Below, piece after piece: positions 41,299 through 57,569 of a DNA stretch of 64,000 nucleotides (position 1 is its first letter; each line of letters starts with the position of its first letter). Under the pieces are notes generated by a model that saw only the letters and a list, made by a program, of their open reading frames with translations, was not told the origin of the DNA and did not search any database. This stretch comes from Chitinophagales bacterium (GTDB lineage: Bacteria; Bacteroidota; Bacteroidia; Chitinophagales; Chitinophagaceae), in contig JAURJU010000027.1 of the NCBI GenBank assembly GCA_030832085.1, positions 1 through 64,000 on the forward strand, in the 5' to 3' direction. Made by a program: the position numbers and the translations under genes.

Positions 41299-42318
41299 AT
41301 GAGAAGACTGATATTGATGTTTGTTGTTTTGTGTTGTGGAGGTTTAATCCAGGCCCAGCAGAGGCCTCATTATACCCAGTATATCATGAACAACTATATC
41401 GTTAACCCTGCCATCGGCGGTATAGAAAATTATGTGGACATAAAATTGAGTACGCGGAACCAGTGGATTGGAATTGATGGTGCACCCAAAACTTTTTATG
41501 CAACCATACATGGCGCAATCGGCAAATCCGACCACCGGGAAAGCGCCACATCATTTGACATGAAAGGGCAAAATCCCAGGGGAAAAGAATATTGGGCTAC
41601 TTATACATCTGCACCTCCGCACCATGGCTTAGGGTTTACGGCTGTAAATTATTCTACAGGATATATCAACAGGATGACCACTTATGGCACCTATTCATAC
41701 CATGTTGGGATCAATGGAACCACCAGTCTGGCAGCCGGATTTGGCGCTGGATTTTCCTCCATCAATGTAAACAGAAGTAAAATCACCCTTGCCACTGCAT
41801 TTGATCCTGCCATTGGAACGGCAACCAATGATATCAGCAAGGTCAAGCCAGAGCTGAATGCAGGTTTGTGGCTCTATTCATCTAATTACTTTGCAGGACT
41901 TTCAGCGCAACAAATCATTCCGGTGAAATTCAACTTGGTTGACAGCTCAGTATACAAATCAACCTTGGTCCCCCACGTTTTTGCAACCGCAGGATATCGA
42001 TTTTTCCTGAATGAGGATATTTCAGCAATTCCCTCGGTGATGTTCAGGTATATTGCCTCGACTCCAACAGCAATGGATGTTAACCTCAAAGTTCAGTACA
42101 GGGACCTGATGTGGCTGGGGGGAAATTATCGGAAAGGGGATGGATTTTCAGGAATGGTTGGCTTGAATATCGCACAAACCTTCAATGTCAGTTATGCATA
42201 TGATTTAAACAAGGGGAAATACATGCTCAGTACCATGAACAGGGGTACCCATGAAATCGTATTGGGTTTCACCTTGAACAACGCCTACGGTGACCTTTGT
42301 CCAAGGAATATTTGGTAA
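41299..42318 (+). CDS. PorP/SprF-family type IX secretion membrane protein
   Basis: Outer-membrane beta-barrel of 339 residues that is usually encoded beside its type B-CTD cargo and helps export or anchor it. After the signal peptide (MRRLILMFVVLCCGGLIQAQ) the family start QRPHYTQYIMNNYIVNPAIG is clear, and the ending TMNRGTHEIVLGFTLNN is typical. It begins 5 bp after the giant protein's stop codon and is surely co-transcribed. Confidence 0.95.
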   Translation: MRRLILMFVVLCCGGLIQAQQRPHYTQYIMNNYIVNPAIGGIENYVDIKLSTRNQWIGIDGAPKTFYATIHGAIGKSDHRESATSFDMKGQNPRGKEYWATYTSAPPHHGLGFTAVNYSTGYINRMTTYGTYSYHVGINGTTSLAAGFGAGFSSINVNRSKITLATAFDPAIGTATNDISKVKPELNAGLWLYSSNYFAGLSAQQIIPVKFNLVDSSVYKSTLVPHVFATAGYRFFLNEDISAIPSVMFRYIASTPTAMDVNLKVQYRDLMWLGGNYRKGDGFSGMVGLNIAQTFNVSYAYDLNKGKYMLSTMNRGTHEIVLGFTLNNAYGDLCPRNIW

Positions 42319-42356
42319 TCACTTAATTCTACTTAATTTTATAAAAAATAGAAACA

Positions 42357-42788
42357 ATGCACAAAAGGCCCCTAAGTTTTATTTTCTTGGTTTTGGTCTC
42401 TATGACCATTGCATGCAAGAAGCCTGCTAAGCCTGTCCCTACTCCAACACCACCACCACCAGTGGTTGAAGTGGAAGATAACATATCCTTTTCCTTGGAC
42501 CCAGATCCTGGAACCACAACTGCAACGGCCTTGTCTGGCATTTATTCATTTAAAGTAACGCTAATTTCTAAAATGCCGAGTTCGGGTATCAGTATTGACA
42601 TTACCACAAAGACAGACCCAGCCGGAACCCTGTTGGACAGCAAAAATGTAAAATCTACCATAGCTGCCAACGATATTACAACAGGTACTTTAGCATCAGG
42701 GGCCCTATACAGTGTAACGGTAGCTGTTACCAGCCAAAAAACAGCCAGCAATTCACTTACAAAAACATTCAAGGTTGCAAGAAAATAA
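42357..42788 (+). CDS. Small lipoprotein of unknown function
   Basis: Not recognised as a named family. The 143-residue product has a lipoprotein signal (FIFLVLVSMTIAC, lipidated Cys about 20), a Pro/Thr-rich linker (KPVPTPTPPPPVVEVE), and a single beta-rich domain ending TKTFKVARK that may be Ig- or fibronectin-like. Located after PorP/SprF with a 38-bp gap and ahead of a strong terminator, so it is probably the third gene of the T9SS cargo operon. Confidence 0.75.
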   Translation: MHKRPLSFIFLVLVSMTIACKKPAKPVPTPTPPPPVVEVEDNISFSLDPDPGTTTATALSGIYSFKVTLISKMPSSGISIDITTKTDPAGTLLDSKNVKSTIAANDITTGTLASGALYSVTVAVTSQKTASNSLTKTFKVARK

Positions 42789-42811
42789 GTTTATTTCTCT
42801 CAACCTTACCG

Positions 42812-42851
42812 CAATAAGAAATCCCCTTCAAATGAAGGGGATTTCTTATTG
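42812..42851. terminator. Bidirectional terminator with a perfect 19-bp stem
   Basis: CAATAAGAAATCCCCTTCA, two-base loop AA, and the exact reverse complement. It lies 23 bp after the lipoprotein stop and 17 bp before the hppA stop, serving both converging genes. T-rich on both sides of the stem. Confidence 0.92.
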
Positions 42852-42868
42852 GAACATGTTGTAGAATA

Positions 42869-45262
42869 CTAATTCTTGGCTTCAGTTTCCTCTATTTTAA
42901 TTTTAACCTTGTCACCTTTGATCATTGACTTGTATTTCTCAGCATCAATTGCCTTGCCATTTACTGTGAGCACACCATTTTCAAAGTCAATGGTATTTGA
43001 CCCACTGCCAATCAATCCGTCGGCTTTCAAGGCTTGAACAAGGCCTTGATCAGGCGCTTCTGTAATGTTTATATCAGTTTTTACTGTATCCGTCCTTGTT
43101 ACAGATATTTCAATTTTGCGTTCTGTTTTCTTTTCAACTGCATCAGTTGGATGCATTTGGGCAAGGGTAGGAGCTATAACCAGGGAAACGATGGACATCA
43201 GTTTAATCAGGATGTTCATGGAAGGACCAGAAGTGTCTTTGAATGGATCGCCAACGGTATCACCGGTTACAGAAGCCTTGTGGGGCTCAGATTTTTTGTA
43301 GAAAATTTCACCATTGATTTCAACGCCTTTTTCAAAACTCTTTTTGGCATTGTCCCATGCACCACCGGCATTGTTCTGGAAAATTCCCATCAAAACGCCA
43401 CTGACAGTAGCCCCAGCCAAGAAACCTCCCAGTGCTTCAGGTCCCAACAAGAAACCAATCAACAAGGGGGATACAATGGTGATGGCACCCGGCAACATCA
43501 TTTTTTTGAGGGATGCTTCAGTGGAGATGGCTACACATTTGTCATATTCAGGTTTTCCTGTTCCCTCCATGATTCCTGGAATTGTGCGAAACTGGCGGCG
43601 AACTTCTTCAACCATTGACATGGCGGCTTCACCAACAGCCCTGATGGCCAAAGATGAGAAAATGAATGGAATCATTCCGCCGATGAACAAAGAAGCAAGT
43701 ACATCTGCTTTGTAGATGTCAATGTGCTGATTGTCTGGCATGGCAACACCAACAAAAGCTGCAAAAAGTGCGAGAGAGGTCAAAGCAGCAGATGCGATGG
43801 CAAAGCCTTTCCCACTTGCAGCGGTGGTATTTCCCACTGCATCAAGAATATCGGTTTTTTCACGAACCTCGCTTGGCAATTCGCTCATTTCGGCAATTCC
43901 CCCAGCATTGTCTGCAATTGGTCCAAATGCATCAATGGCCAATTGCATTGCAGTAGTGGCCATCATTCCTGCAGCTGCGATGGCAACACCATACAGGCCT
44001 GCGCATGCATAGGATCCATAAATACCACCTGCCAAAACAAGAATAGGCAGAAATGTGCTTTCCATCCCAATGGCCAAGCCACCAATGATGTTTGTGGCAT
44101 GACCTGTAGCCGATTGGCGAATAATGCTCAACACAGGACGTTTGCCCATGGCCGTATAATATTCCGTAATGATGCTCATCAGGGCACCCACAACCAGGCC
44201 AACAGCAATAGCACCGATAACACCATTGCGTGTGAATTCCAAACCGCGCAATGACATGGTTTCAGGGAGCATGTATGAAACGATGAAGTAAGCAGCAATT
44301 GCAGTAAGGACCATTGATCCCCAATTGCCCATGTTCAATGCTTTTTGAACGGCCTCTGTGCTCGCGCCAACTGAGTCACTTATTTTAACGAACAAAGTGC
44401 CAACTATGGATAAAATTATTCCAACGCCTGCGATCACCATTGGTAAAAGGATGGGAGCAAACCCCCCAAAATTGTCTATTGACTTTGTTTCCTGCCCCAG
44501 AACCATGGTTGCCAAAACAGTTGCAACATAAGAACCGAACAAATCCGCTCCCATGCCTGCAACATCACCAACATTATCTCCAACATTATCAGCAATGGTA
44601 GCCGGATTGCGGGGATCGTCTTCTGGGATACCAGCTTCCACTTTACCAACAAGGTCAGCACCCACGTCAGCGGCTTTGGTGTAAATTCCACCACCAACAC
44701 GGGCAAAAAGGGCAATACTTTCAGCTCCCAATGAAAAACCAGTCAGAACTTCAATGGTACGCAGCATACCTTCAGCATCACCATCGGGTGCAAAAAAATG
44801 CTTCAAAATGATGAACAATCCGCCAAGACCCAAAACAGCAAGGCCAGAGACCCCCAAGCCCATAACTGCTCCACCAGTAAAAGAAACATTGAGTGCTTTG
44901 CTCAAGCTTGTTTTTGCTGCCTCCGCGGTACGCACATTTGCTTTGGTGGCAACCTTCATGCCAATATAACCTGCCGTTGCACTGAAAACTGCACCGATAA
45001 TGAAAGAGATTGCTATGCTCCAATGGCTGTCTGCATTGCTTTGCGCCATAAAGCCCAAAAGCAGGGCAACAATTACAACAAAATAGCCAAGAATTTTCCA
45101 CTCAGCCTTCAAGAAAGCCATAGCACCTTCAGCAATAAACGTGCTGATTTCTTTCATTCTTGCCGATCCTGCATCCTGCCTTGATACCCAATTGAACTTC
45201 AAAAGTGTATACAGCAGTCCTACAACTCCCATAAGGGGAACGAGATAAGTCAAATTTTCCAT
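42869..45262 (-). CDS. hppA: Membrane-bound pyrophosphatase (ion-pumping) with C-terminal extension
   Basis: Pumps H+ or Na+ by hydrolysing pyrophosphate; 797 residues with about 16 helices. Catalytic motifs are [20 protein letters not shown] and [19 protein letters not shown], with the acidic [20 protein letters not shown] near the end. The GNTTAAS segment has Ala at the position that separates K+-dependent (Ala) from K+-independent (Lys) enzymes, so it is probably K+-dependent and perhaps Na+-pumping. After the last helix, about 100 residues ([20 protein letters not shown] through [15 protein letters not shown]) form an extra, probably periplasmic tail. Start at 45262 ([11 protein letters not shown]). 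Confidence 0.95.
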
Positions 45263-45719
45263 AAACAATTCTAGTGCGTTTGGTTATTGAACCAGTCAGT
45301 TTTTTACTGACTTAGGGGCAGCAAAAATAGAAAAAAAAGTGATGAAAAAACAGCTTTTTGCCGAATCATTTTACTTGCCTTGACAGAAATCATAATGGCA
45401 AAAAACATCGGATAACCACTCAATACAATGCATGTGATAAAAATGAAATATGATCAGGCGATTGCATGTAAACACTGACAAGATTGGACAAGCAGAAAGG
45501 AGCAGCAATATGATCTAACATATTGATATTGTTGACTTTATAATATAAAACTGAACTTAATACTTGTGCCATTAACGCTCTCTCGTGTCAACCGAAATTG
45601 GGTATTTGCTCAAAAGACAGCTGAAAAACCAAAACAAGGAATTTATTTAGAAAATAATGTAAAAGCAGGTTCAGTGGTTCACTGAAATGCCTTAGCGCAT
45701 ATGCAGGTGCCCGAAATCA
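45263..45719. other. 457-bp gap between the serine hydrolase and hppA
   Basis: No protein gene or tRNA is seen. It holds the hppA promoter candidate (45322-45329) and a 6-bp inverted repeat GTCAGT/ACTGAC at 45295-45311 that could form a 5' UTR hairpin or an operator. A 7-bp inverted repeat, CAATATG-N6-CATATTG, lies at 45506-45525. A hairpin TTCAGTG/CACTGAA at 45670-45686 is a weak terminator candidate for the serine hydrolase. The middle is AT-rich. Confidence 0.5.
45322..45329 (-). promoter_or_regulatory. Candidate -7 element (TATTTTTG) of hppA
   Basis: Exact TAnnTTTG on the minus strand, 59 bp upstream of the hppA start. The leader would contain the GTCAGT/ACTGAC inverted repeat. No -33 TTG was found. 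Confidence 0.4.
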
Positions 45720-46889
45720 TCATTCATCTTCATCAGACTGAATGCCATAACCCTTGAAAATTCCTGCAATTTTCTTTGCCTGGTAAATGCTTCGGTTGAA
45801 CTTATTGCCCAAGACAATGATGGCTGTCGAATCAGCAGGAAGACGGCTGAACACAGTATTGTTGCCATGCCACCATCCATTGTGGTAAATGATCTTTTTT
45901 CCAGTCGGCATTTCGACCAGACGCCATCCCAAACCATAATTCCTTGTTCCCCGTCTTTCGTAACTGTAACCTTTGTAAGCCTCCTCAAGTGTTTTGGCAG
46001 AGAAGATTTTTCCCTGGGAAAGGGCAATATCCCATTTCATCATGTCCCTGGGTGTACTGTAAATATTTTTATCACCATAAACCGCATCAAGAAACATCAA
46101 AGGCTCCTTTTGGTTATTGAACCGGTAGGAGGGGAGCACGGATTCGGCCATCTCAATACCAAAAACGAAACTATTGCTCATTCCCAGTGGTTTGAAGAAA
46201 ACTTGCTCCAAATATTCAGAAAAAGCAAGTTTGGTTACTTTCTCAATAATCAATGCCAGCAAAGCATAATTGGTATTGCAATAGTCGAAATAAGCATCCG
46301 CTCTACCAGGTTTTAATTTTTCTGGATTGGATATCAACATTTGTAAAATGTCTTCGTTTGTGAGGAAGCGTTTGGCATCCCAACCCATTTTTTCAGCAAA
46401 ATGGACATAATTGGGCAAACCACTGCGGTGGCTCAGCAGGTTCCTGATGGTAATGGATGGAAAAGGGAACCCCGTTAGGTATTGGCCTACAGGGTCATCC
46501 AGCAAAAGCAAATTGCTTTCCCAAAGCTTGAGCACAGCCATTGCAGTGAAAGTTTTGGAAACTGAGGCAAGGTGAAAAGCAGTATTTGAATCAATGGCCT
46601 CTCCACGCAATACATTTTCTAATCCAACATATTTTTCAAAAACGATTTTTCCATTTCTTGCAACCAGTATGGCTCCGTTGAACCGAGAACGGATTAGCTT
46701 TTCCTCGTAAAATCGCTCACTGGATTTCCTCAAAGCAACATCTGTTTCGGTAAAGGCTGCATTTACCGGAACTGGTTCAATGACAATGGCAGGTTCTGAC
46801 GGAATAGAGAACAAGGAATACCTGTCAACGCCATAAAATATGGCAGCAAATGCCACGAACAATAAAATGAAAAGTTTAAATCTCTGCAT
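45720..46889 (-). CDS. Serine hydrolase, beta-lactamase/PBP class C fold
   Basis: Exported or membrane-anchored hydrolase of 389 residues. An N-terminal helix (LFILLFVAFAAIFYGVDRYS) precedes the class C domain with the SxxK motif in LASVSKTFTAMAVLKLW and the YxN motif in DYCNTNYALLALI. IIYHNGWWHGNNTVFS replaces the usual C-terminal KTG-type motif. The family includes carboxypeptidases, esterases and amidases; the substrate is unknown. Divergent from serA with 66 bp between the starts. Confidence 0.9.
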   Translation of the reverse strand: MQRFKLFILLFVAFAAIFYGVDRYSLFSIPSEPAIVIEPVPVNAAFTETDVALRKSSERFYEEKLIRSRFNGAILVARNGKIVFEKYVGLENVLRGEAIDSNTAFHLASVSKTFTAMAVLKLWESNLLLLDDPVGQYLTGFPFPSITIRNLLSHRSGLPNYVHFAEKMGWDAKRFLTNEDILQMLISNPEKLKPGRADAYFDYCNTNYALLALIIEKVTKLAFSEYLEQVFFKPLGMSNSFVFGIEMAESVLPSYRFNNQKEPLMFLDAVYGDKNIYSTPRDMMKWDIALSQGKIFSAKTLEEAYKGYSYERRGTRNYGLGWRLVEMPTGKKIIYHNGWWHGNNTVFSRLPADSTAIIVLGNKFNRSIYQAKKIAGIFKGYGIQSDEDE

Positions 46890-49232: not shown

Positions 49233-50627
49233 TTACCCGGTCTTTTTCTGAAAAATGGTATCGGTTGTTGCTGGCTTCATTGAATCTCCAAAATTCATTT
49301 TAATGGAATTGCCTGTTCTTTCTATATCCAAACGATCTTGAGGAGTAATTTTTGTTCCTTGCAGGTAAAGCTGTTTCAAATTTGCAAGTTTGAACAATTG
49401 TCTTGTGCCCGCAGCAGTGACATTGGTAGAAACAATGTTGAGGTATTCCAATTGTTTCATGGCAAGCAACTGCTGAATTGTAAGATCAGTTATATCAGTA
49501 TGGTCCAACCATAATTTTTCAACATTTTTCAATTTCTCCAAGCGCTTTAAGTCAACATCAGTAGCTTTTGTAAAAGAAAGTTTCAATTCAACAATGTTCT
49601 CTTCGATGCGGGATAGCGGTTCAAAGGCTTCCTTGAATGGAACCTCTAGGTTATAAGCCGTGAGCCGCAGATGGTTGTCGTTTTTTGAGACAGGTGAGAG
49701 AACCCATCCCATTTTTTCCAATACTAGTTTTGTAGCTTGGTCTATTGGCTCAACTGCAGGCCTTTGCTTGAAGACATCTTTGGATTCAGATGAATTGTTT
49801 TCCTTGAAACTGTTCAGGGATTTTATGATTCGCTCATCAGGCTTCAAGGCAACAACGGATTTTGCATAAGAAGCCCCGGTATTGATCCACCATCGAAATA
49901 TTTCTTTCTCTGCGTCTGTGAGTTGTTCCTTCTCTTTTGGAGGCATATGGTGCTCATCAATGTCATCCAATAAAATTCGTCTGATCAATTCACTTTTACG
50001 AGGTTCACTGGTGTTGATAATTTTTCCACTTTTCCCTCCTGCCGCAATCCACTCCTGGGCATCAAGCCTTAATTTCCCTTTTTGCTTTTCTGCGCCATGG
50101 CATTGAACACATTTCTGGTTCAGTGTGTATTGAACAATATCCTTGTAAACAACAGCTCGATTGATATCGGTAAAGGACAATGCATCGTTTGACGGTTGAC
50201 TTGGTTGTAAAAGTCCTGCTGTCAAAAAATCTTCGCCGTGGGTAAGAGCACCTCCCTGGTGACCTGTCCAGACAAGCATTGACAGCAACAAGGCCAATGA
50301 TAAAAATTGAACATAACGCCTGATCAGTAACTTTTCCCTAAACAATAAATAAAGAACAAACAGAAGGGTAGTAGCAATGGCGGTCCACTGGTGGTTGCTT
50401 ACGCGGTCTTCATTGTTGCTGCCTTCCAGCGAAAGACAATACCCAGTGACCAATGACAGAATTGCTGTTATGATTCCTGCAAGGAGCATAAATTTCAGGG
50501 AAGCCAATAGAAATTTAAATCGCTCCGCGCTTGCAATGGCTTCCATAAAAAGTACAAGTGTAAAAATGCCAATGGGCAAGTGTACCAATACGGGGTGAAA
50601 TCTTCCGATCAAATCAATCATGTTCAT
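49233..50627 (-). CDS. DUF2231 membrane domain - cytochrome c - LRR fusion protein
   Basis: Protein of 464 residues with three parts. The N-terminal DUF2231 domain (HPVLVHLPIGIFTLVLFMEA, four helices to about residue 121) is followed by a heme c site QKCVQCHGAEKQKGK at residues 171-185, with a distal MPP segment HHMPPKEKEQLTDAEKEI (planctomycete-type cytochrome). The last part, from about 340 to 445, is leucine-rich-repeat-like (KLWLDHTDITDL, YLNIVSTNVTAAG, QLYLQGTKITPQ). Probably anchored in the inner membrane with the heme and LRR in the periplasm. Last gene of the six-gene operon, 10 bp after the TIM-barrel gene. Confidence 0.85.
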   Translation of the reverse strand: MNMIDLIGRFHPVLVHLPIGIFTLVLFMEAIASAERFKFLLASLKFMLLAGIITAILSLVTGYCLSLEGSNNEDRVSNHQWTAIATTLLFVLYLLFREKLLIRRYVQFLSLALLLSMLVWTGHQGGALTHGEDFLTAGLLQPSQPSNDALSFTDINRAVVYKDIVQYTLNQKCVQCHGAEKQKGKLRLDAQEWIAAGGKSGKIINTSEPRKSELIRRILLDDIDEHHMPPKEKEQLTDAEKEIFRWWINTGASYAKSVVALKPDERIIKSLNSFKENNSSESKDVFKQRPAVEPIDQATKLVLEKMGWVLSPVSKNDNHLRLTAYNLEVPFKEAFEPLSRIEENIVELKLSFTKATDVDLKRLEKLKNVEKLWLDHTDITDLTIQQLLAMKQLEYLNIVSTNVTAAGTRQLFKLANLKQLYLQGTKITPQDRLDIERTGNSIKMNFGDSMKPATTDTIFQKKTG

Positions 50628-50637
50628 TTTCCTTGTT

Positions 50638-51546
50638 TCAACTGTATCTTTTTCGCAAAGTATTCATCATGTACCTGTTGATGTCCCATTGGTCAGAAAC
50701 AGGTTGTGCTGTGAATGGGAGTGTTTGCATATAATTGGCTGGTCCAAATTCTGTCAGTATAGTAATGGTTTTGCCTTCTTTTCTTTTTCGCGAAACAATC
50801 CTGTCCCACCATTGCATGTGCGCATCAACTTCATTTTTCCATTCCGGTGCCCTTGGATCGTTTACCTGAGGGCCCTCAGCATGTCCAACCCTTGCATGGA
50901 TATGTTCTGCCCTGTTCAAAGCAGCAGCAACATTCGTTTGCTGGTCAGACAGCAATCCTTCATGAACATTGCACCAATGGGAGATGTCCAGTGTAAGCTT
51001 CAGCCCTTCCAAAGCATCTATAAACTTGCTGGTTACATGTGCTGCAAATAGGGCCCTGCCGCGGTGTGTTTCATGGTAAATCGGAATACCGGTTTCATCA
51101 GACCTTTTTATGGTATACTTCATCATTTCAAGGTTCTGTTCAAATTCAAAATGATCCCGGCCAGAATGACAATTGATATAGATGGGCTTCATGGATATGG
51201 CCCTTTCAATGGCTGCAAAAAATTGTTTTTTGTGGATTGACGGGTTTGAATCCGACCCACCTGTCAACAACCCAAGCTTGAGTCCATATTTCACAACTGC
51301 AGCATTCAATTCATTCATTTCATTTTGCGAATTTGGCACCCAAACCTCAATACCATCGTAACCATCCCTCTTGGCTGCTGAACAGAAATCTGTCAGGTTT
51401 GATTTGAATCCCCAGTTGGTGGCCATGAAAACCAAATCAGCTGGGGGATGCGACAAATCATGGCTTGGAAAAGGTGCCAATCCCGGAAGCATCATTGATC
51501 CGGTGAACATGGAGCCATTTTTCAAAAAATCTCTTCTGTTTCCCAT
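50638..51546 (-). CDS. Sugar phosphate isomerase/epimerase-like TIM-barrel protein, Tat signal
   Basis: AP_endonuc_2 / xylose-isomerase-like barrel of 302 residues. A twin-arginine type leader (MGNRRDFLKNGSMFTGSMML) suggests export folded, perhaps with a metal. Metal-site segments are YDGIEVWVPNSQNEM, YINCHSGRDHFEFEQ, YHETHRGRALFAAH and LDISHWCNVHEGLL. Substrate unknown; homologues often act on sugars. Sits 8 bp after the DUF1501 gene. A periplasmic location for a sugar isomerase-like enzyme fits extracellular glycan work. Confidence 0.85.
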   Translation of the reverse strand: MGNRRDFLKNGSMFTGSMMLPGLAPFPSHDLSHPPADLVFMATNWGFKSNLTDFCSAAKRDGYDGIEVWVPNSQNEMNELNAAVVKYGLKLGLLTGGSDSNPSIHKKQFFAAIERAISMKPIYINCHSGRDHFEFEQNLEMMKYTIKRSDETGIPIYHETHRGRALFAAHVTSKFIDALEGLKLTLDISHWCNVHEGLLSDQQTNVAAALNRAEHIHARVGHAEGPQVNDPRAPEWKNEVDAHMQWWDRIVSRKRKEGKTITILTEFGPANYMQTLPFTAQPVSDQWDINRYMMNTLRKRYS

Positions 51547-51554
51547 ACAATGTT

Positions 51555-53045
51555 TTATGCGATGATTGGATCAATGGGCTTGCCGAACACATCCGTGAGC
51601 CTGAATGGCCTGCCTTGAAATTGATAGGTGAGTTGCTCATGGTCAAAGCCCAGTTGCTTTAAAATGGTGGCTTGAACATCGTAAACGGAAACCTTACCAT
51701 CAATGGCATTGTAACCAATAGGGTCTGTTTCACCATAACTGAATCCACCTTTTATACCCCCGCCGGCCATCCACATGCTGAAAGCATCTGCATGATGGTC
51801 ACGGCCCTTGAAACTGTTCTGTTTTCCATCCCTGTTTTCCTGCATCGGAGTTCGACCAAATTCACCTCCCCAGACAACCAATGTTTCCTCCAGCAACCCT
51901 CTTTGTTTCAGGTCCAACAGGAGTGCAGATACCGCTTTGTCGGTTTGTAAACATTTGCCAATAAACCCCTTGTCAAGGGCTGTATCCTCACCAGTGCCGT
52001 GGCTGTCCCATCCCCAATCAAACAGCTGCACGAAACGCACCCCTTTTTCTACAAGTTTTCTCGCCAGCAATGCATTGTTTGCAAAGGATTCTTCACCAGG
52101 CTTTGTTCCATACATTTCATGGATATATGCAGGTTCATCCGCAATGTTCATGACATCCGGAACGGCAATTTGCATTTTGAAAGCCATCTCATATTGTGAG
52201 ATCCTGGAGAGGATTTCAGGATCCTTGTACTCTGTATATGCAAGCTCATTGACATGATTGATTGCTTCAATGGAAGCCTTGCGCATGTCGCGGTCAAATC
52301 CGTTTGGATCTTTCAGGAACAGAACAGGATCACCTTCCGACCGGCATTGAACACCCTGGTAAACAGATGGCAGGAACCCACTTCCCCAAATGCTCTTTCC
52401 AGCATCCGGATTTCTTCCACCCGATGTAAGCACCACAAATCCAGGCAAATTGCTGTTTTCGGAACCAAGTCCATATGTCACCCAAGAACCCATGCTGGGC
52501 CTTCCAAGGCGCGGGGTTCCACAATGCATGAGCAATTGTGCTGGAGCATGATTGAATTGGTCCGTATTAACCGCTTTCAGAATTGAAACATCGTCAATAA
52601 CTTGCTGAAAGTGGGGGAGGTTGTCGGATAACCAGAGCCCGCTTTGGCCATACTGTTTAAAATTGGCCTGAGGACCAAGCAATTTCGGAACGCCCCGGAT
52701 GAAAGCAAATTTTTTACCTTGAATAAAAGAATCTGGACAATCCAGTCCATCCATTTTTTGCAATTCAGGCTTGTAATCAAACATTTCCAATTGCGAGGGT
52801 GCCCCTGCCATGTGTAAAAATATCACAGACTTGGCCTTTCCTTGAAAATGGGGTGACCTGGGCGAAAGTGGATTGTAGCCTATGGAGTTTTCATCTTCAT
52901 TGGCAGAAAACAGGTTGCAGCCATCCAAGACAGAACCCAATGCCATCATTCCCATTCCTGTTCTGCATTTACCCAAAAAATGCCTTCTGGTTTGGTAGGA
53001 TAGGGCTGTTGTCTGTGCCTCTTGGTGTATTTTTTCTTTTGTCAT
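51555..53045 (-). CDS. DUF1501 protein (sulfatase/phosphatase-like fold), Tat signal
   Basis: Exported 496-residue protein. A twin-arginine motif (QTRRHFLGKCRTGMGMM, Arg 20-21) is followed by the DUF1501 domain, a relative of the alkaline phosphatase/sulfatase superfamily. Segments VIFLHMAGAPSQLEMFDYKP, LFDWGWDSHGTGED and GGEFGRTPMQENRDGKQN followed by GRDHHADAFS carry the likely metal ligands. Families of this kind almost always pair with PSD1 cytochromes, as here. Function unproven. Eight base pairs separate it from each neighbour in the operon. Confidence 0.88.
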   Translation of the reverse strand: MTKEKIHQEAQTTALSYQTRRHFLGKCRTGMGMMALGSVLDGCNLFSANEDENSIGYNPLSPRSPHFQGKAKSVIFLHMAGAPSQLEMFDYKPELQKMDGLDCPDSFIQGKKFAFIRGVPKLLGPQANFKQYGQSGLWLSDNLPHFQQVIDDVSILKAVNTDQFNHAPAQLLMHCGTPRLGRPSMGSWVTYGLGSENSNLPGFVVLTSGGRNPDAGKSIWGSGFLPSVYQGVQCRSEGDPVLFLKDPNGFDRDMRKASIEAINHVNELAYTEYKDPEILSRISQYEMAFKMQIAVPDVMNIADEPAYIHEMYGTKPGEESFANNALLARKLVEKGVRFVQLFDWGWDSHGTGEDTALDKGFIGKCLQTDKAVSALLLDLKQRGLLEETLVVWGGEFGRTPMQENRDGKQNSFKGRDHHADAFSMWMAGGGIKGGFSYGETDPIGYNAIDGKVSVYDVQATILKQLGFDHEQLTYQFQGRPFRLTDVFGKPIDPIIA

Positions 53046-53053
53046 TTTTTGAT

Positions 53054-55807
53054 CTAGTTCTTTGTGATTACTTCATCGAGGTTGAGAATTGCATTGGTTA
53101 CTACTGACAAGGCAGCGAGTTCCTTTCCTTTTTTCTGGTAAACTGAATCGGATAACATGCTTAAAATCCTCTGTTTGTCTTTTTCAAGTCTTTGAAAACT
53201 GGACTGATACAGTTTTTCCAGTGCATTTGTTTTTTGTGGGTCGATAGGATGCCCGGTGGCCTTTGCGTACCCTTTGCCAATTTTTTGCTGAATCGAAAGC
53301 CCATTGTTCTTCATCAGTTGCTGAGCAAATTTGACCGAAAGATCCCAATAGGTGGAATCATTGAGCAAGGTCAATGCCTGCAGGGGTGTATTTGTTCGAA
53401 TACGGCGCGTATTGCATACTTCTCTTGCAGAACCATCAAAACTTACCATGGAAGGGTAGGGACTGGTTCTTTTCCAATAGGTATAAATGGCACGACGATA
53501 TTGGTCTTCGCCATCACTTTTTTTCCATTTCCTTCCATCGTATGGGGAACGCCAAATTCCCTCAGGCTGGTATGGCATTACACTGGGTCCATACATTTTA
53601 TCACTCAACGCACCACAGATGACCAAAGCCTGATCCCTTACTTGCTCTGCACTTAGACGTACCCTAGGTGCATGTGAATAGAGTTTGTTTAGAGGGTCCT
53701 TTTCTTTTGCCTTTTCGCTGGTTTCAGAAGATTGGCGGTATGTGGCTGACATGACCATTCTTTTGAGCATTTTTTTCATGCTCCATTTGTCCTCGTGCAT
53801 GAACTGGTAGGCCAAATAATCCAATAGCTCTGGATGGGTTGGTTGTGCTCCCTGCGATCCAAGGTCTTCCAAGGTTTCCACCAATCCCTGACCAAAAAGT
53901 TGCTCCCATAATCTGTTGACCATGGTTCTGGAAGTAAGCGGATTCCTTTTATCCGTCATCCACTGTGCCAACCCAAGCCTGTTGCGCAATTTGATGTCCT
54001 TGTCATTGATGAACAAAGCTGGTAATCCCGGCTCAACCTTGGTCGTTTTCAACAACCAGTTGCCCCTTTCAAAGACATGGGTACTGCGTTTCATGTCTGC
54101 CGGATTATCCAACATGATGGGTGTAAACTCAGCATCCGGGCGGTTCAATGTTTGCACAAAAAGATCGTGATAAACAGTGAAGTCTTTCAATGTTTTCCCG
54201 GGAAATGAAGGGGTAAGTGCAAACCAATCAAACCGCATCCCATTGTCCTCTTTGGACTTCAATTTGCTGTTTTCGTAATTAAGGTAAAGATCATGAACGC
54301 CGGTTGATCCTTTGGGCAATTCAACTTCAAGCAAGGTCCAGCCACCCTTGTCCTTGTCAACCTTGATTTTCAGGTATGGTTTTGCACCTGGCGAATCCAG
54401 CATGATGGAGAGTACACCCTTGTCATGTCCAGAAGTATACCGAATGAGCAAGGTTGACTTGTTGGTAAGGCTGACCGCTTTGATCCTTGCCCAAGAAGAT
54501 TTTCGCAACATGAGAAATTTTGTATCCGCCAAAGCAGCATTCACCATTGAATCAGCCAACAGGCTATTTATGCACTGTTGACCCGTTTTGAGCAATCTCC
54601 TGTAAAAAGTTTCCTCTTCTGGGGTCCCATACAATTTGACCCAGTTCATTACCGAGTCGAACTGGCCTATGCTTTTGTTCCTGAATTCGCGCAAAAGAGG
54701 ATAGTCATCATAAGTATCCTCATCCCTTGTATTGTTGAAATAGGCCATGAATTTGTAATATTCTTCATGTCGAATGGGATCATAAGGGTGACTATGGCAT
54801 TGGACACACGCAAAACTAGTGCCCATCAGTGTTTCCCAGGTAGTGTTCACCCTGTCGATGACTGCAGCAGTCCTGAACTCCTCATTGTCTGTCCCCCCTT
54901 CATCATTTGTCATGGTATTCCTGTGAAATGCTGTTGCTATGAATTGTTCATCAGTAGCGTTCGGTAGAAGATCGCCGGCAAGCTGCTCGGTCAGGAATTG
55001 ATCGTAGGGCATGTCCGCATTGAAAGATTTGATCAACCAGTCACGGTAACGCCAAATGGAGCGTATGTAATCCCTTTCGTAACCCTTGGTGTCTGCGTAG
55101 CGAGCAAGGTCCATCCACAGTGAAGTCCATCTTTCTCCATAATATTTTGATGCCAATAAAGCGTCTACCAAGTGCTCATACGCATTGGGTGATTGATCAG
55201 AAAGGTATTTTTGGGCAATGTTTTCGGGTGCTGGTATACCTATAATATCTAATGAGATGCGTCTCATTAATAATTGTTTATCAGCTATTTGCGATCTATT
55301 AAGACCTTTCTCTTTTAGTTTTTTATCGATGAAATGATCGATCTCGTTCTTGTCCTCGCTACTGAAGAAGGAAAGCAATCCCGGACTGGGTACAGCCTGG
55401 GCTTGAACCGGCTTATACGCCCAATGCGTTTCAAAATTAGCACCCTCATCAATCCATCGGGTAAGAATCCTGATCTCACCTGCTGTCAGGGGTTCCTCCT
55501 TGTATGGCATGCGCTCCTCAAGATCCTTGTGGTGAAGGCGTTTAATCATTTCACTGTTTTGGGCATCCCCGGGAATGATTGCAGGTTTACCTGAAGCAGT
55601 GGGAGAGAGCGCCTCTTCTCTAAAAAGAAGACTGAATCCCCCCTTTTTCTTTACGCCGCCATGACAGGATATGCATTTTTGGTTGATGATGGGTTTGACC
55701 TCTGCATTGTAGTCGATCGGATGATGGGTAAAGAACAGGAAATAACAGGAGAGGACTGCCGTTAGTCCAACCATTGTAAGAACAAGGGGTGATTTAAGCC
55801 AGGTCAT
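53054..55807 (-). CDS. PSD1-type planctomycete cytochrome with CBM6-like insert
   Basis: Large 917-residue protein. Domains in order: an N-terminal helix; PSCyt1 with heme site NQKCISCHGGVKKKGG (Cys45, Cys48, His49); DUF1549/PSCyt2 (HFIDKKLKEKGLNRSQIADK) with a second CxxCH (SFACVQCHSHPYDPIRHEEY); an inserted CBM6-like beta-sandwich around residues 420-540 (VSLTNKSTLLIRYTSGHDKG, MRFDWFAL); then DUF1553/PSD1 (RLGLAQWMTDKRNPLTSRTM). The carbohydrate-binding insert suggests a glycan or glycoconjugate substrate. Located 3 bp after cutC. Confidence 0.9.
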   Translation of the reverse strand: MTWLKSPLVLTMVGLTAVLSCYFLFFTHHPIDYNAEVKPIINQKCISCHGGVKKKGGFSLLFREEALSPTASGKPAIIPGDAQNSEMIKRLHHKDLEERMPYKEEPLTAGEIRILTRWIDEGANFETHWAYKPVQAQAVPSPGLLSFFSSEDKNEIDHFIDKKLKEKGLNRSQIADKQLLMRRISLDIIGIPAPENIAQKYLSDQSPNAYEHLVDALLASKYYGERWTSLWMDLARYADTKGYERDYIRSIWRYRDWLIKSFNADMPYDQFLTEQLAGDLLPNATDEQFIATAFHRNTMTNDEGGTDNEEFRTAAVIDRVNTTWETLMGTSFACVQCHSHPYDPIRHEEYYKFMAYFNNTRDEDTYDDYPLLREFRNKSIGQFDSVMNWVKLYGTPEEETFYRRLLKTGQQCINSLLADSMVNAALADTKFLMLRKSSWARIKAVSLTNKSTLLIRYTSGHDKGVLSIMLDSPGAKPYLKIKVDKDKGGWTLLEVELPKGSTGVHDLYLNYENSKLKSKEDNGMRFDWFALTPSFPGKTLKDFTVYHDLFVQTLNRPDAEFTPIMLDNPADMKRSTHVFERGNWLLKTTKVEPGLPALFINDKDIKLRNRLGLAQWMTDKRNPLTSRTMVNRLWEQLFGQGLVETLEDLGSQGAQPTHPELLDYLAYQFMHEDKWSMKKMLKRMVMSATYRQSSETSEKAKEKDPLNKLYSHAPRVRLSAEQVRDQALVICGALSDKMYGPSVMPYQPEGIWRSPYDGRKWKKSDGEDQYRRAIYTYWKRTSPYPSMVSFDGSAREVCNTRRIRTNTPLQALTLLNDSTYWDLSVKFAQQLMKNNGLSIQQKIGKGYAKATGHPIDPQKTNALEKLYQSSFQRLEKDKQRILSMLSDSVYQKKGKELAALSVVTNAILNLDEVITKN

Positions 55808-55810
55808 TAT

Positions 55811-56551
55811 TTAAGACTTTTTATTGAAGTAATCATTCAGGTTCTGTCTCAAGCGGCTCACCTCTTCTCCATCCAGGGATACTTGCTCAAGAGATTCATT
55901 CATGCGTGGATTGAAATAAGCCATTTGACTTTTGCGCAATGTTCTGGCAGAACTGTGAAAAGCCCTTGCACCGGTATCTATGGCCAATGAAATGATATTT
56001 TCCGAACGAATGCCTGATCCGGGCATGATGATGATCCTTTCGTTGGCCTGATCAATCAATTTTTTCAGCAAAGTTTTACCTTCGATGGCAGTTGAACACA
56101 AACCGCTTGTGAGTATTCGCTTGCAACCAATTGCAATAATTTGCTCAAGTGATATTTCAGGATTTTTGACCCTGTCAAAAGCACGATGAAAAGTAACCTC
56201 TTGCGTGCCCGCCATCTCAACCAGCGCTTGACATCTTTCAAGGTCTATATCTCCATCTTTAGTTAATATCCCAATTACTACGCCATCACAACCAGCATCT
56301 TGTGATGATTTTATGTCGTCTTTAATTGCTTCATATTCCTTGTCTGAATAAAGAAAATCACCTCCCCGTGGACGTATGATGGGGAAAACTGGAAGGCTTG
56401 TTGATTTTCTGGCCGCTTTCATCATTCCAAACGATGGGGTAGTTCCTCCTTCGTGTGGATTGGCACACAATTCTATCCGGTCTGCGCCGTTTTCTTCGGC
56501 CAAATGACAGGATTCGACATCAAAGGCAATCACTTCAAGTTCAAACTTCAT
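55811..56551 (-). CDS. cutC: CutC-family TIM-barrel protein
   Basis: Soluble barrel of 246 residues. The N-terminus MKFELEVIAFDVESCHLAEE and GADRIELCANPHEGGTTPSFG are the family signature, with IRPRGGDFLYSDKE after it. CutC was linked to copper homeostasis in E. coli, but that role is disputed and the enzyme activity is unknown. The start at 56551 is preferred; the frame extends to 56593 into the upstream gene. One base separates it from the asparaginase stop, so the two are translationally linked. The glycan context here does not suggest copper. Confidence 0.9.
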   Translation of the reverse strand: MKFELEVIAFDVESCHLAEENGADRIELCANPHEGGTTPSFGMMKAARKSTSLPVFPIIRPRGGDFLYSDKEYEAIKDDIKSSQDAGCDGVVIGILTKDGDIDLERCQALVEMAGTQEVTFHRAFDRVKNPEISLEQIIAIGCKRILTSGLCSTAIEGKTLLKKLIDQANERIIIMPGSGIRSENIISLAIDTGARAFHSSARTLRKSQMAYFNPRMNESLEQVSLDGEEVSRLRQNLNDYFNKKS

Positions 56552-56552
56552 A

Positions 56553-57569
56553 TCAATTGAAATAACTTTCTCCAGGGATAACGACTTCCTCATCCGATGA
56601 TTTTACAGCATAAGAGAACCCTTTTTGAAGTGCATAAGCACCATAATTTCCAAATTTATCAATGGCAAGGAATCCAATCTGTATTGTTTTTGCCTTGATA
56701 GGATCGCGTTTTGCAATCCTTTCAACAACCTTTTTACAGGCTTCCCGCGGGGAATTTCCTTGTCGCATATATTCTACAACCAAATGAGAACCAACGCATC
56801 GTATCACTTCTTCTCCAACTCCTGTTGAGGTAGCTGCACCAATTTCACCGTCTACAAAAAGCCCGGCTCCTATGACCGGAGAGTCTCCAACACGTCCATG
56901 CATCTTGAATGCCATTCCACTGGTGGTACATCCACCGCTGAGGTTTCCGGCTGCATCAAGTGCCAGCATTCCAATGGTGTCGTGGTTATCTATGCTTCCA
57001 GGGAACAATCCAGTTTCAGGTTGCTGTTGGTATTGCTTGTTTTCTATGTTCATGACAGGCGCATAATTGGCCTTCTTGAGCCAGTTTTTCCATGCTTCCT
57101 CACTGTCTGGAGTAAGCAGGTTTTCTTTTTTGAACCCGTTCGCCAATGCAAACTGCAAAGCACCATCGCCTACAAGGATCACATGCGGGGTTTTCTCCAT
57201 GACCATTCTGGCGACAGAAATGGGATGTTTGATGTATTCAAGGCACATCACGGATCCGCAATTGCCTTTTTCATCCATGATGCATGCATCCAGTGTAACC
57301 CGGCCATCGCGGTCTGGATAGCCTCCATATCCAACAGTTTTGTTGCTTTGGTCAGCCTCAGTTACCCGGGCACCTTGTTCAATGGCGTCAATGGCCCGTC
57401 CATTGGCAGCCAGAATTTTCCAGCCCTCAGCATTGGCCGCCTTGCCAAAATCCCATGTTGAAATGATGATGGGCTTTGTAAGCTTGGCTATTTGATTGGT
57501 TGAATGAATTGGCGATGAAATTACGGGCAATGTAAGCAGTGAATTTTTCAGGAAATCTCTACGGATCAT
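56553..57569 (-). CDS. N4-(beta-N-acetylglucosaminyl)-L-asparaginase, Tat-type signal
   Basis: Ntn-hydrolase of 338 residues that cleaves the GlcNAc-Asn bond after the peptide has been removed. A twin-Arg-like leader (MIRRDFLKNSLLTLPVISSP) suggests export. The autocleavage site is DNHDTIGMLALDAAGNLSGG, where Thr198 becomes the N-terminal nucleophile, and GRVGDSPVIGAGLFVDG binds substrate. First gene of the operon, with its start 133 bp from the divergent NAGPA-like gene. Only a one-mismatch promoter-like AAACTTTG at 57598-57605 is visible upstream. Confidence 0.92.
   Translation of the reverse strand: MIRRDFLKNSLLTLPVISSPIHSTNQIAKLTKPIIISTWDFGKAANAEGWKILAANGRAIDAIEQGARVTEADQSNKTVGYGGYPDRDGRVTLDACIMDEKGNCGSVMCLEYIKHPISVARMVMEKTPHVILVGDGALQFALANGFKKENLLTPDSEEAWKNWLKKANYAPVMNIENKQYQQQPETGLFPGSIDNHDTIGMLALDAAGNLSGGCTTSGMAFKMHGRVGDSPVIGAGLFVDGEIGAATSTGVGEEVIRCVGSHLVVEYMRQGNSPREACKKVVERIAKRDPIKAKTIQIGFLAIDKFGNYGAYALQKGFSYAVKSSDEEVVIPGESYFN

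Follow-up and report, generated by a model that had tools for sequence, protein, structure and literature searches.

The PSCyt1, PSCyt2, and PSD1 domains have been described in the PSCyt/PSD proteins of Planctomycetes and Verrucomicrobia (PMC2754498, PMC5615132). In the available parts of PMC5615132, nothing is said to be known about the function of PSCyt, carbohydrate metabolism is suggested, and carbohydrate-binding modules are also noted with these proteins. A redox function has been suggested for DUF1553/DUF1549 in excerpts of the literature. In the available sections of two further papers, DUF2231 appears in a table, in the row "Electron transport chain" (PMC12828279), and PF09990 is an entry in a family list (PMC3879021).

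The genes reported here encode the same PSCyt1, PSCyt2, and PSD1 domains, but they are accompanied by a DUF2231 partner, which the available parts of the Planctomycetes and Verrucomicrobia descriptions, compared by description, do not mention (PMC2754498, PMC5615132). No description of a DUF2231-PSCyt1 protein or of its link to PSD1 was recognised in the open-licence literature searched, as far as the accessible text extends. The partner, a fusion of DUF2231, PSCyt1, and leucine-rich repeats (LRR), probably connects the PSD1 enzymes with the respiratory chain on the outer side of the inner membrane.

Architecture of the fusion and of its operon

The window, the whole stretch of 64,000 nucleotides of a Chitinophagales bacterium that was analysed, contains the fusion gene at 49233..50627 on the minus strand. 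It is an open reading frame for 464 amino acids, recognised by Pfam and by whole-length relatives; the plus strand in the same frame has many stops. The DUF2231 four-helix membrane domain (residues 1–131; 50235..50627, minus strand) was delimited by Pfam, AlphaFold2, conservation, and loop charge. The Pfam match to PF09990 at residues 10–119 is marginal by itself, at 27.6 bits versus a cut-off of 26.4, and reaches 31.5 bits when the domain is searched alone. The PSCyt1 heme c domain (residues 173–232; 49932..50111, minus strand), identified by Pfam and conservation, matches PF07635 over the same residues with 52.9 bits versus a cut-off of 22 and includes CVQCH at residues 173–177. The LRR region (residues about 295–452; 49272..49745, minus strand) was assigned by Pfam, the structure model, and PDB comparison. 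Its LRR_8 match at residues 368–427 scores 30.7 bits versus a cut-off of 27.

The sequence-only reading had proposed such a three-domain fusion, and Pfam, AlphaFold2, and the alignment of relatives all confirm it. In an alignment of 79 sequences, consisting of the window protein and 78 relatives, PSCyt1 was found in 79, DUF2231 in 71, and LRR_4 in 56 at E ≤ 0.001. At E ≤ 1 the numbers were 79, 79, and 78, respectively, and the order of domains was constant. Because the three parts recur across these sequences, their joining is not a matter of chance. The AlphaFold2 model has a mean pLDDT of 88.4 and a pTM of 0.63; thus, the single domains are well predicted and their relative arrangement is not. 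Four long helices are seen at residues 16–32 (with a broken start from residue 3), 35–66, 73–100, and 104–130. The LRR region forms a solenoid, with PDB matches covering about residues 295–452. The best PDB LRR chain aligned with a Z score of 14.7 over 148 residues (rmsd 3.6), in a search whose matches were LRR chains and which barely probed the membrane and heme domains. The predicted CVQCH site would carry a covalently bound heme c. The CxxCH residues and M228 are invariant in 79/79 sequences, and M228 is the likely candidate for the sixth ligand of this heme.

The fusion gene is the last of a compact series on the minus strand. The order is PSCyt1-PSCyt2-PSD1 (53054..55807), DUF1501 (51555..53045), AP_endonuc_2 (50638..51546), and the fusion, with gaps of 8, 8, and 10 bases. 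The first gene encodes a protein of 917 amino acids, characterised by Pfam, alignment, and fold, with a hydrophobic N-terminal segment, CxxCH at residues 45 and 334, and a CBM6-like insert at about residues 411–534. The Cys and His residues of both CxxCH are invariant in 45 aligned sequences. The DUF1501 and AP_endonuc_2 proteins, both assigned by Pfam and motif, have twin-arginine starts; 64 of 68 DUF1501 relatives and 55 of 56 AP_endonuc_2 relatives carry such a motif close to their start. These motifs, together with the hydrophobic segment and the two CxxCH of the PSD1 protein, indicate that the neighbours are very likely exported, as had been assumed for PSD1 and DUF1501 from the sequence alone. 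Against PDB sequences, the DUF1501 search returned one arylsulfatase (E 0.6) and the AP_endonuc_2 search none at E ≤ 0.01.

Two Pfam-assigned genes lie upstream on the same strand: a CutC family gene (55811..56593), 3 bases before the PSD1 gene, and an Asparaginase_2 family gene (56553..57569), which heads the run and overlaps the CutC gene by 41 bases. Both are at most possible members of the system. Promoter and terminator scans were close to chance (21 versus 17.2, and 11 versus 9.1). Elsewhere in the window, positions 41299–46889 carry a PorP/SprF-type gene, a membrane pyrophosphatase, and a beta-lactamase-family protein, which have no relation to the fusion.

Association with PSD1 in Bacteroidota

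A contig scan confirmed at least 537 relatives of the fusion, of which the best 80 were kept. By record title, these 80 are Bacteroidota, apart from one record named "uncultured bacterium". The most frequent arrangement, seen in 40 of the 80 best relatives, is exactly PSD1-DUF1501-AP_endonuc_2-fusion; several others are cut by contig ends. Two of the 80 relatives were left out for short frames, and 29 of the 80 loci for having less than 7 kb on a side. In the 51 loci that have 7 kb or more of flank on each side, PSD1 was found on the same strand as the fusion in 47, DUF1501 in 49, and AP_endonuc_2 in 39. No PSD1 was detected in the other four of the 51 (L058, L093, L113, and L116).

The same coupling is seen at the level of genomes. 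In the order sample (298 genomes; fusion match at E ≤ 1e-5), the fusion was found in 79, PSD1 in 75, and both in 74. The five genomes with the fusion only have weak matches, with best E values from 3.1e-8 to 2.3e-6, and one genome (G077) has PSD1 without the fusion. In the phylum sample (345 genomes; fusion match at E ≤ 1e-10), the fusion was found in 42, PSD1 in 44, and both in 42, so that there was no fusion-only genome. Both PSD1-only genomes, G554 and G587, have weak PSD1 matches. Ten of the genomes with both genes are shared by the two samples. The coupling gives a Fisher p below 1e-50, although relatedness makes such p values too small. PSD1 proteins can match the fusion query weakly, since the query holds PSCyt1. 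The best listed match in each of the 42 genomes begins within query residues 1–9, with the exception of G561, in which it begins at residue 104, near the contig start.

Distances were taken from 69 fusion matches in the phylum list, after removal of one-protein fusions and partial matches, and from the PSD1 matches minus the weakest; both lists are partial. A listed PSD1 lies within 15 kb of 58 of the 69, always on the strand of the fusion, with the centres 2.6 to 7.4 kb apart. Of the other 11, nine have no listed PSD1 on the contig and two have a distant one only. The sequence-only reading had named occurrence of the fusion only far from PSD1 genes as evidence against itself; PSD1 is instead nearby, and the proposed co-occurrence with PSD1 operons is upheld by loci and genomes alike. 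The fusion is the usual operon partner of PSD1 cytochrome enzymes among the Bacteroidota genomes with PSD1.

In some cases, the two proteins are one. The source genome encodes an 838-amino-acid protein (L040:8291-10807) composed of DUF2231, PSCyt1, PSCyt2, and PSD1, followed by DUF1501. Nineteen more candidates, picked for long frames, were fetched; one of them, L172, is cut off by the end of its contig and yielded no complete frame. The other 18, each from a different genome, contain DUF2231-PSCyt1 with two CxxCH. Among them, 17 match both the PSCyt2 and PSD1 parts of the PSD1 protein encoded in the window; L162 shows a match of more than 100 residues to the PSCyt1-PSCyt2 part of the query only. 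Pfam detected all four domains in the three versions on which it was run, the source-genome paralog and two others. The one-protein versions form one branch with a support of 99 in a quick tree. The HPxxxH motif is present in 18/18 of the fetched versions; its motif test was negative in L176 and L183. The HxGGxxTH motif test was negative in L159 and L163, though His is aligned at 123 and 130. These one-protein versions are the strongest indication of a joint function of the membrane domain and the PSD1 enzyme.

Several other loci of interest were observed. L041:5133-6923 (G000:C79) adjoins a fusion gene and encodes a paralog with the five histidines and LRR/Fn3 parts, with no PSCyt1 match; it is perhaps a degenerate or regulatory copy. 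At L038:9924-13172 (G000:C22) in the source genome, about 3.2 kb of N lie beside DUF1501 of another fusion operon, at the expected place of PSD1. L040:4355-8123 contains a 905-amino-acid protein with a cytochrome c domain next to a DUF4432 protein. A pair that looks similar by eye, with similar starts, is at L039:671-4410, and both contigs carry a DUF2231 match.

Invariant histidines of the membrane domain

The earlier reading had pointed to conserved His residues in HPVLVHLPIG. Both of them are invariant, but the set consists of five residues, not two: H11, H16, H79, H123, and H130 are invariant in 79/79 aligned sequences. Variation at the His residues, which the earlier reading had named as evidence against itself, was not seen. 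The loops between helices 1 and 2 and between helices 3 and 4 contain on average 3.0 and 2.7 K+R versus 0.7 and 0.5 D+E, and the loop between helices 2 and 3 contains 0.6 K+R versus 3.0 D+E (79 sequences). Under the positive-inside rule, these charges place both ends of the bundle in the periplasm. A heme c domain requires a periplasmic location. All five invariant histidines are therefore at the periplasmic ends of helices, and a site at the outer face is favoured over a path through the membrane. From this face, quinone could be reached without electrons crossing the bilayer.

It had been proposed that a second heme in DUF2231 could complete a transmembrane electron path from the exported enzymes to the quinone pool. 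Four helices and five invariant histidines might suggest hemes stacked across the bilayer. The loop charges of the 79 sequences, with both ends outside and no invariant His at a cytoplasmic end, led to rejection of this transmembrane diheme path, which is very improbable. The second heme itself is plausible, with the five histidines as candidate ligands. A docking function of the LRR for a partner is likewise plausible.

Cytochrome b561 families (PF01292, PF03188) resemble the fusion in having a helix bundle and conserved His, and a minority of the fusion proteins show weak Pfam matches to them. PF01292 was matched at E ≤ 1 by 17 of 79 fusion relatives, the best at 4.6e-4, beside unrelated membrane families. 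With the DUF2231 domain alone (n = 27), PF01292 was matched in 6, PF03188 in 7, and the unrelated DUF4131 in 9; in the ordinary DUF2231 control, PF01292 was matched in 1 of 26. In cytochrome b561-type diheme families, however, His ligands are near both membrane faces. This is not the case in the fusion, in which, by loop charge, the invariant His are on one face only. The DUF2231 profile gave a best E of 0.43 against PDB sequences.

Ordinary DUF2231 proteins were represented by 26 of 30 PF09990 loci (L124-L153), four having no frame in the motif test; these loci are the strongest Pfam matches and hence ordinary members by choice. They share the four-helix domain and H11, H16, and H79 (26/26) with the fusion. 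The frame test itself asks for HPxxxHxP-like letters, so that the count for H11 and H16 is partly selection; H79, H123, and H130 are unaffected. In contrast, CxxCH was found in 0/26, His at 123 in 2/26, and His at 130 in 1/26, whereas both of the latter are present in 27/27 PSCyt1-linked sequences. H79, H123, and H130 are also present in 12/12 longer members, 19/19 PSD1-fused members, and one paralog without PSCyt1. In the quick tree, which included every second LRR-type sequence, the PSCyt1-linked group forms one side of a branch with a support of 100. Being rare in ordinary DUF2231 and constant in the group, H123 and H130 mark the PSCyt1-linked group. They lie at the end of helix 4 (residues 123–130, H-x-G-G-x-L-T-H; 50238..50261, minus strand), as identified by the tree and the comparison with ordinary DUF2231.

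Ordinary DUF2231 is not tied to PSD1, since PF09990 is widespread: it was matched in 121 of 198 genomes (92 above cut-off), including families f33, f36, and f37, none of which is in the PSD1 list. The 90 neighbouring frames of ordinary DUF2231 genes revealed no evident redox theme; they included short-chain dehydrogenase (9), pseudouridine synthase (9), enoyl-CoA hydratase (8), and CcmF_C (1). Four ordinary proteins (L127, L128, L135, and L147) have His-rich C-terminal tails, a hint that the function of the ancestral domain may have involved a metal. Five (L133, L135, L142, L145, and L150) are about 350 amino acids long with an extra C-terminal part; three of these show weak matches, below cut-off, to Laminin_G_3 or 3keto-disac_hyd.

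As H11, H16, and H79 are shared with the 26 ordinary proteins compared, none of which has CxxCH, they may serve structure or a non-redox metal. DUF2231 in the fusion could then just anchor the protein in the membrane or bind a non-redox metal, and the PSCyt1 heme would pass electrons to a soluble cytochrome c and on to a terminal oxidase, bypassing the quinone pool. The His-rich tails and the heme-copper oxidase of the source genome are in line with this. A plain anchor, however, needs no invariant His, and two further His became invariant exactly in the PSCyt1-linked clade; this explanation is unlikely. It is tentatively proposed, with the balance somewhat against it, that the five-His bundle represents a novel type of membrane redox module, with a b-type heme or redox metal and a quinone site wholly on the periplasmic side, which would have arisen once from three-His DUF2231 and connects the PSD1 enzymes of Bacteroidota to respiration.

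Proposed electron route and substrate

The fusion may be a periplasm-side membrane redox subunit linking the PSD1 hemes to the quinone pool, a proposal for which the chances appear evenly balanced. The PSCyt1-PSCyt2-PSD1 protein, which would carry two hemes c besides its sugar-binding-type insert, would oxidise an exported substrate, probably a carbohydrate. Electrons would move from this protein to the PSCyt1 heme of the fusion and to the DUF2231 bundle, where the five periplasm-side His would bind heme b, or another redox metal, next to a quinone site. From there the electrons would reach the quinone pool on the outer side of the inner membrane, and the LRR may help to hold the partner enzyme. 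The source genome encodes a c-heme assembly protein and a heme-copper oxidase. About 4 kb from the latter, the same contig encodes an NrfD-type protein, which fits an alternative complex III. Electrons could exit by quinone or by cytochrome c.

Region 411–534 of the PSD1 protein resembles CBM6 modules in fold (2v4v; Z 16.4, 117 residues, rmsd 1.7), in a search filled by CBM-type chains at residues 359–534 that barely probed the remaining parts; the CBM_6 Pfam score is below cut-off. Against PDB sequences, the PSD1 profile matched FoxE (5e-5) and hydrazine synthase (0.0053), both in the first heme c part, and CBM-type chains from E 0.0039. A longer kind of fusion, of about 720 amino acids, has LRR and Fn3_assoc/CHB_HEX_C. 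In the listed pairs, fusion frames of at least 650 amino acids adjoin a PSD1 frame of at most 860 amino acids in 17/17 cases; among 41 shorter fusion frames, 30 adjoin a longer PSD1 frame and 11 a short one (Fisher 1e-7, relatedness ignored). Frame length is here a proxy for a sugar-binding insert, checked in three PSD1 proteins: 779 amino acids without an insert, 917 with a CBM_6-like insert, and 1074 with Laminin_G_3. This points to a carbohydrate-type module that may be carried by one subunit or the other, as in a complex.

LacB of the lactose 3-dehydrogenase LacABC is a cytochrome c. According to the accessible part of its description, LacABC is a membrane-bound complex for periplasmic sugar oxidation (PMC9007349). 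The fusion and PSD1 would work alike, but their enzyme part is PSD1, and the likeness drawn here is one of proposed working. The same anatomy could also serve reverse flow: quinol electrons would pass through DUF2231 and heme c and reach the PSD1 enzyme, which would use them for a reductive, peroxidase-like, or oxygen-dependent reaction; the findings are compatible with either direction. In the available part of PMC5615132, PSCyt genes are more abundant in epilimnion MAGs, which is compatible with such a flow. The sugar-binding-type modules, and oxidative sugar pathways elsewhere such as LacABC, make oxidation the simpler guess, and reverse flow is considered quite unlikely.

The existence of a membrane partner whose candidate ligands are invariant suggests that PSD1 enzymes are respiratory, at least in Bacteroidota. 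The proposed link to the quinone pool says where their electrons should go, and H123 and H130 are single residues whose change should uncouple the PSD1 enzymes. The fusion also gives a hint to the function of DUF2231.
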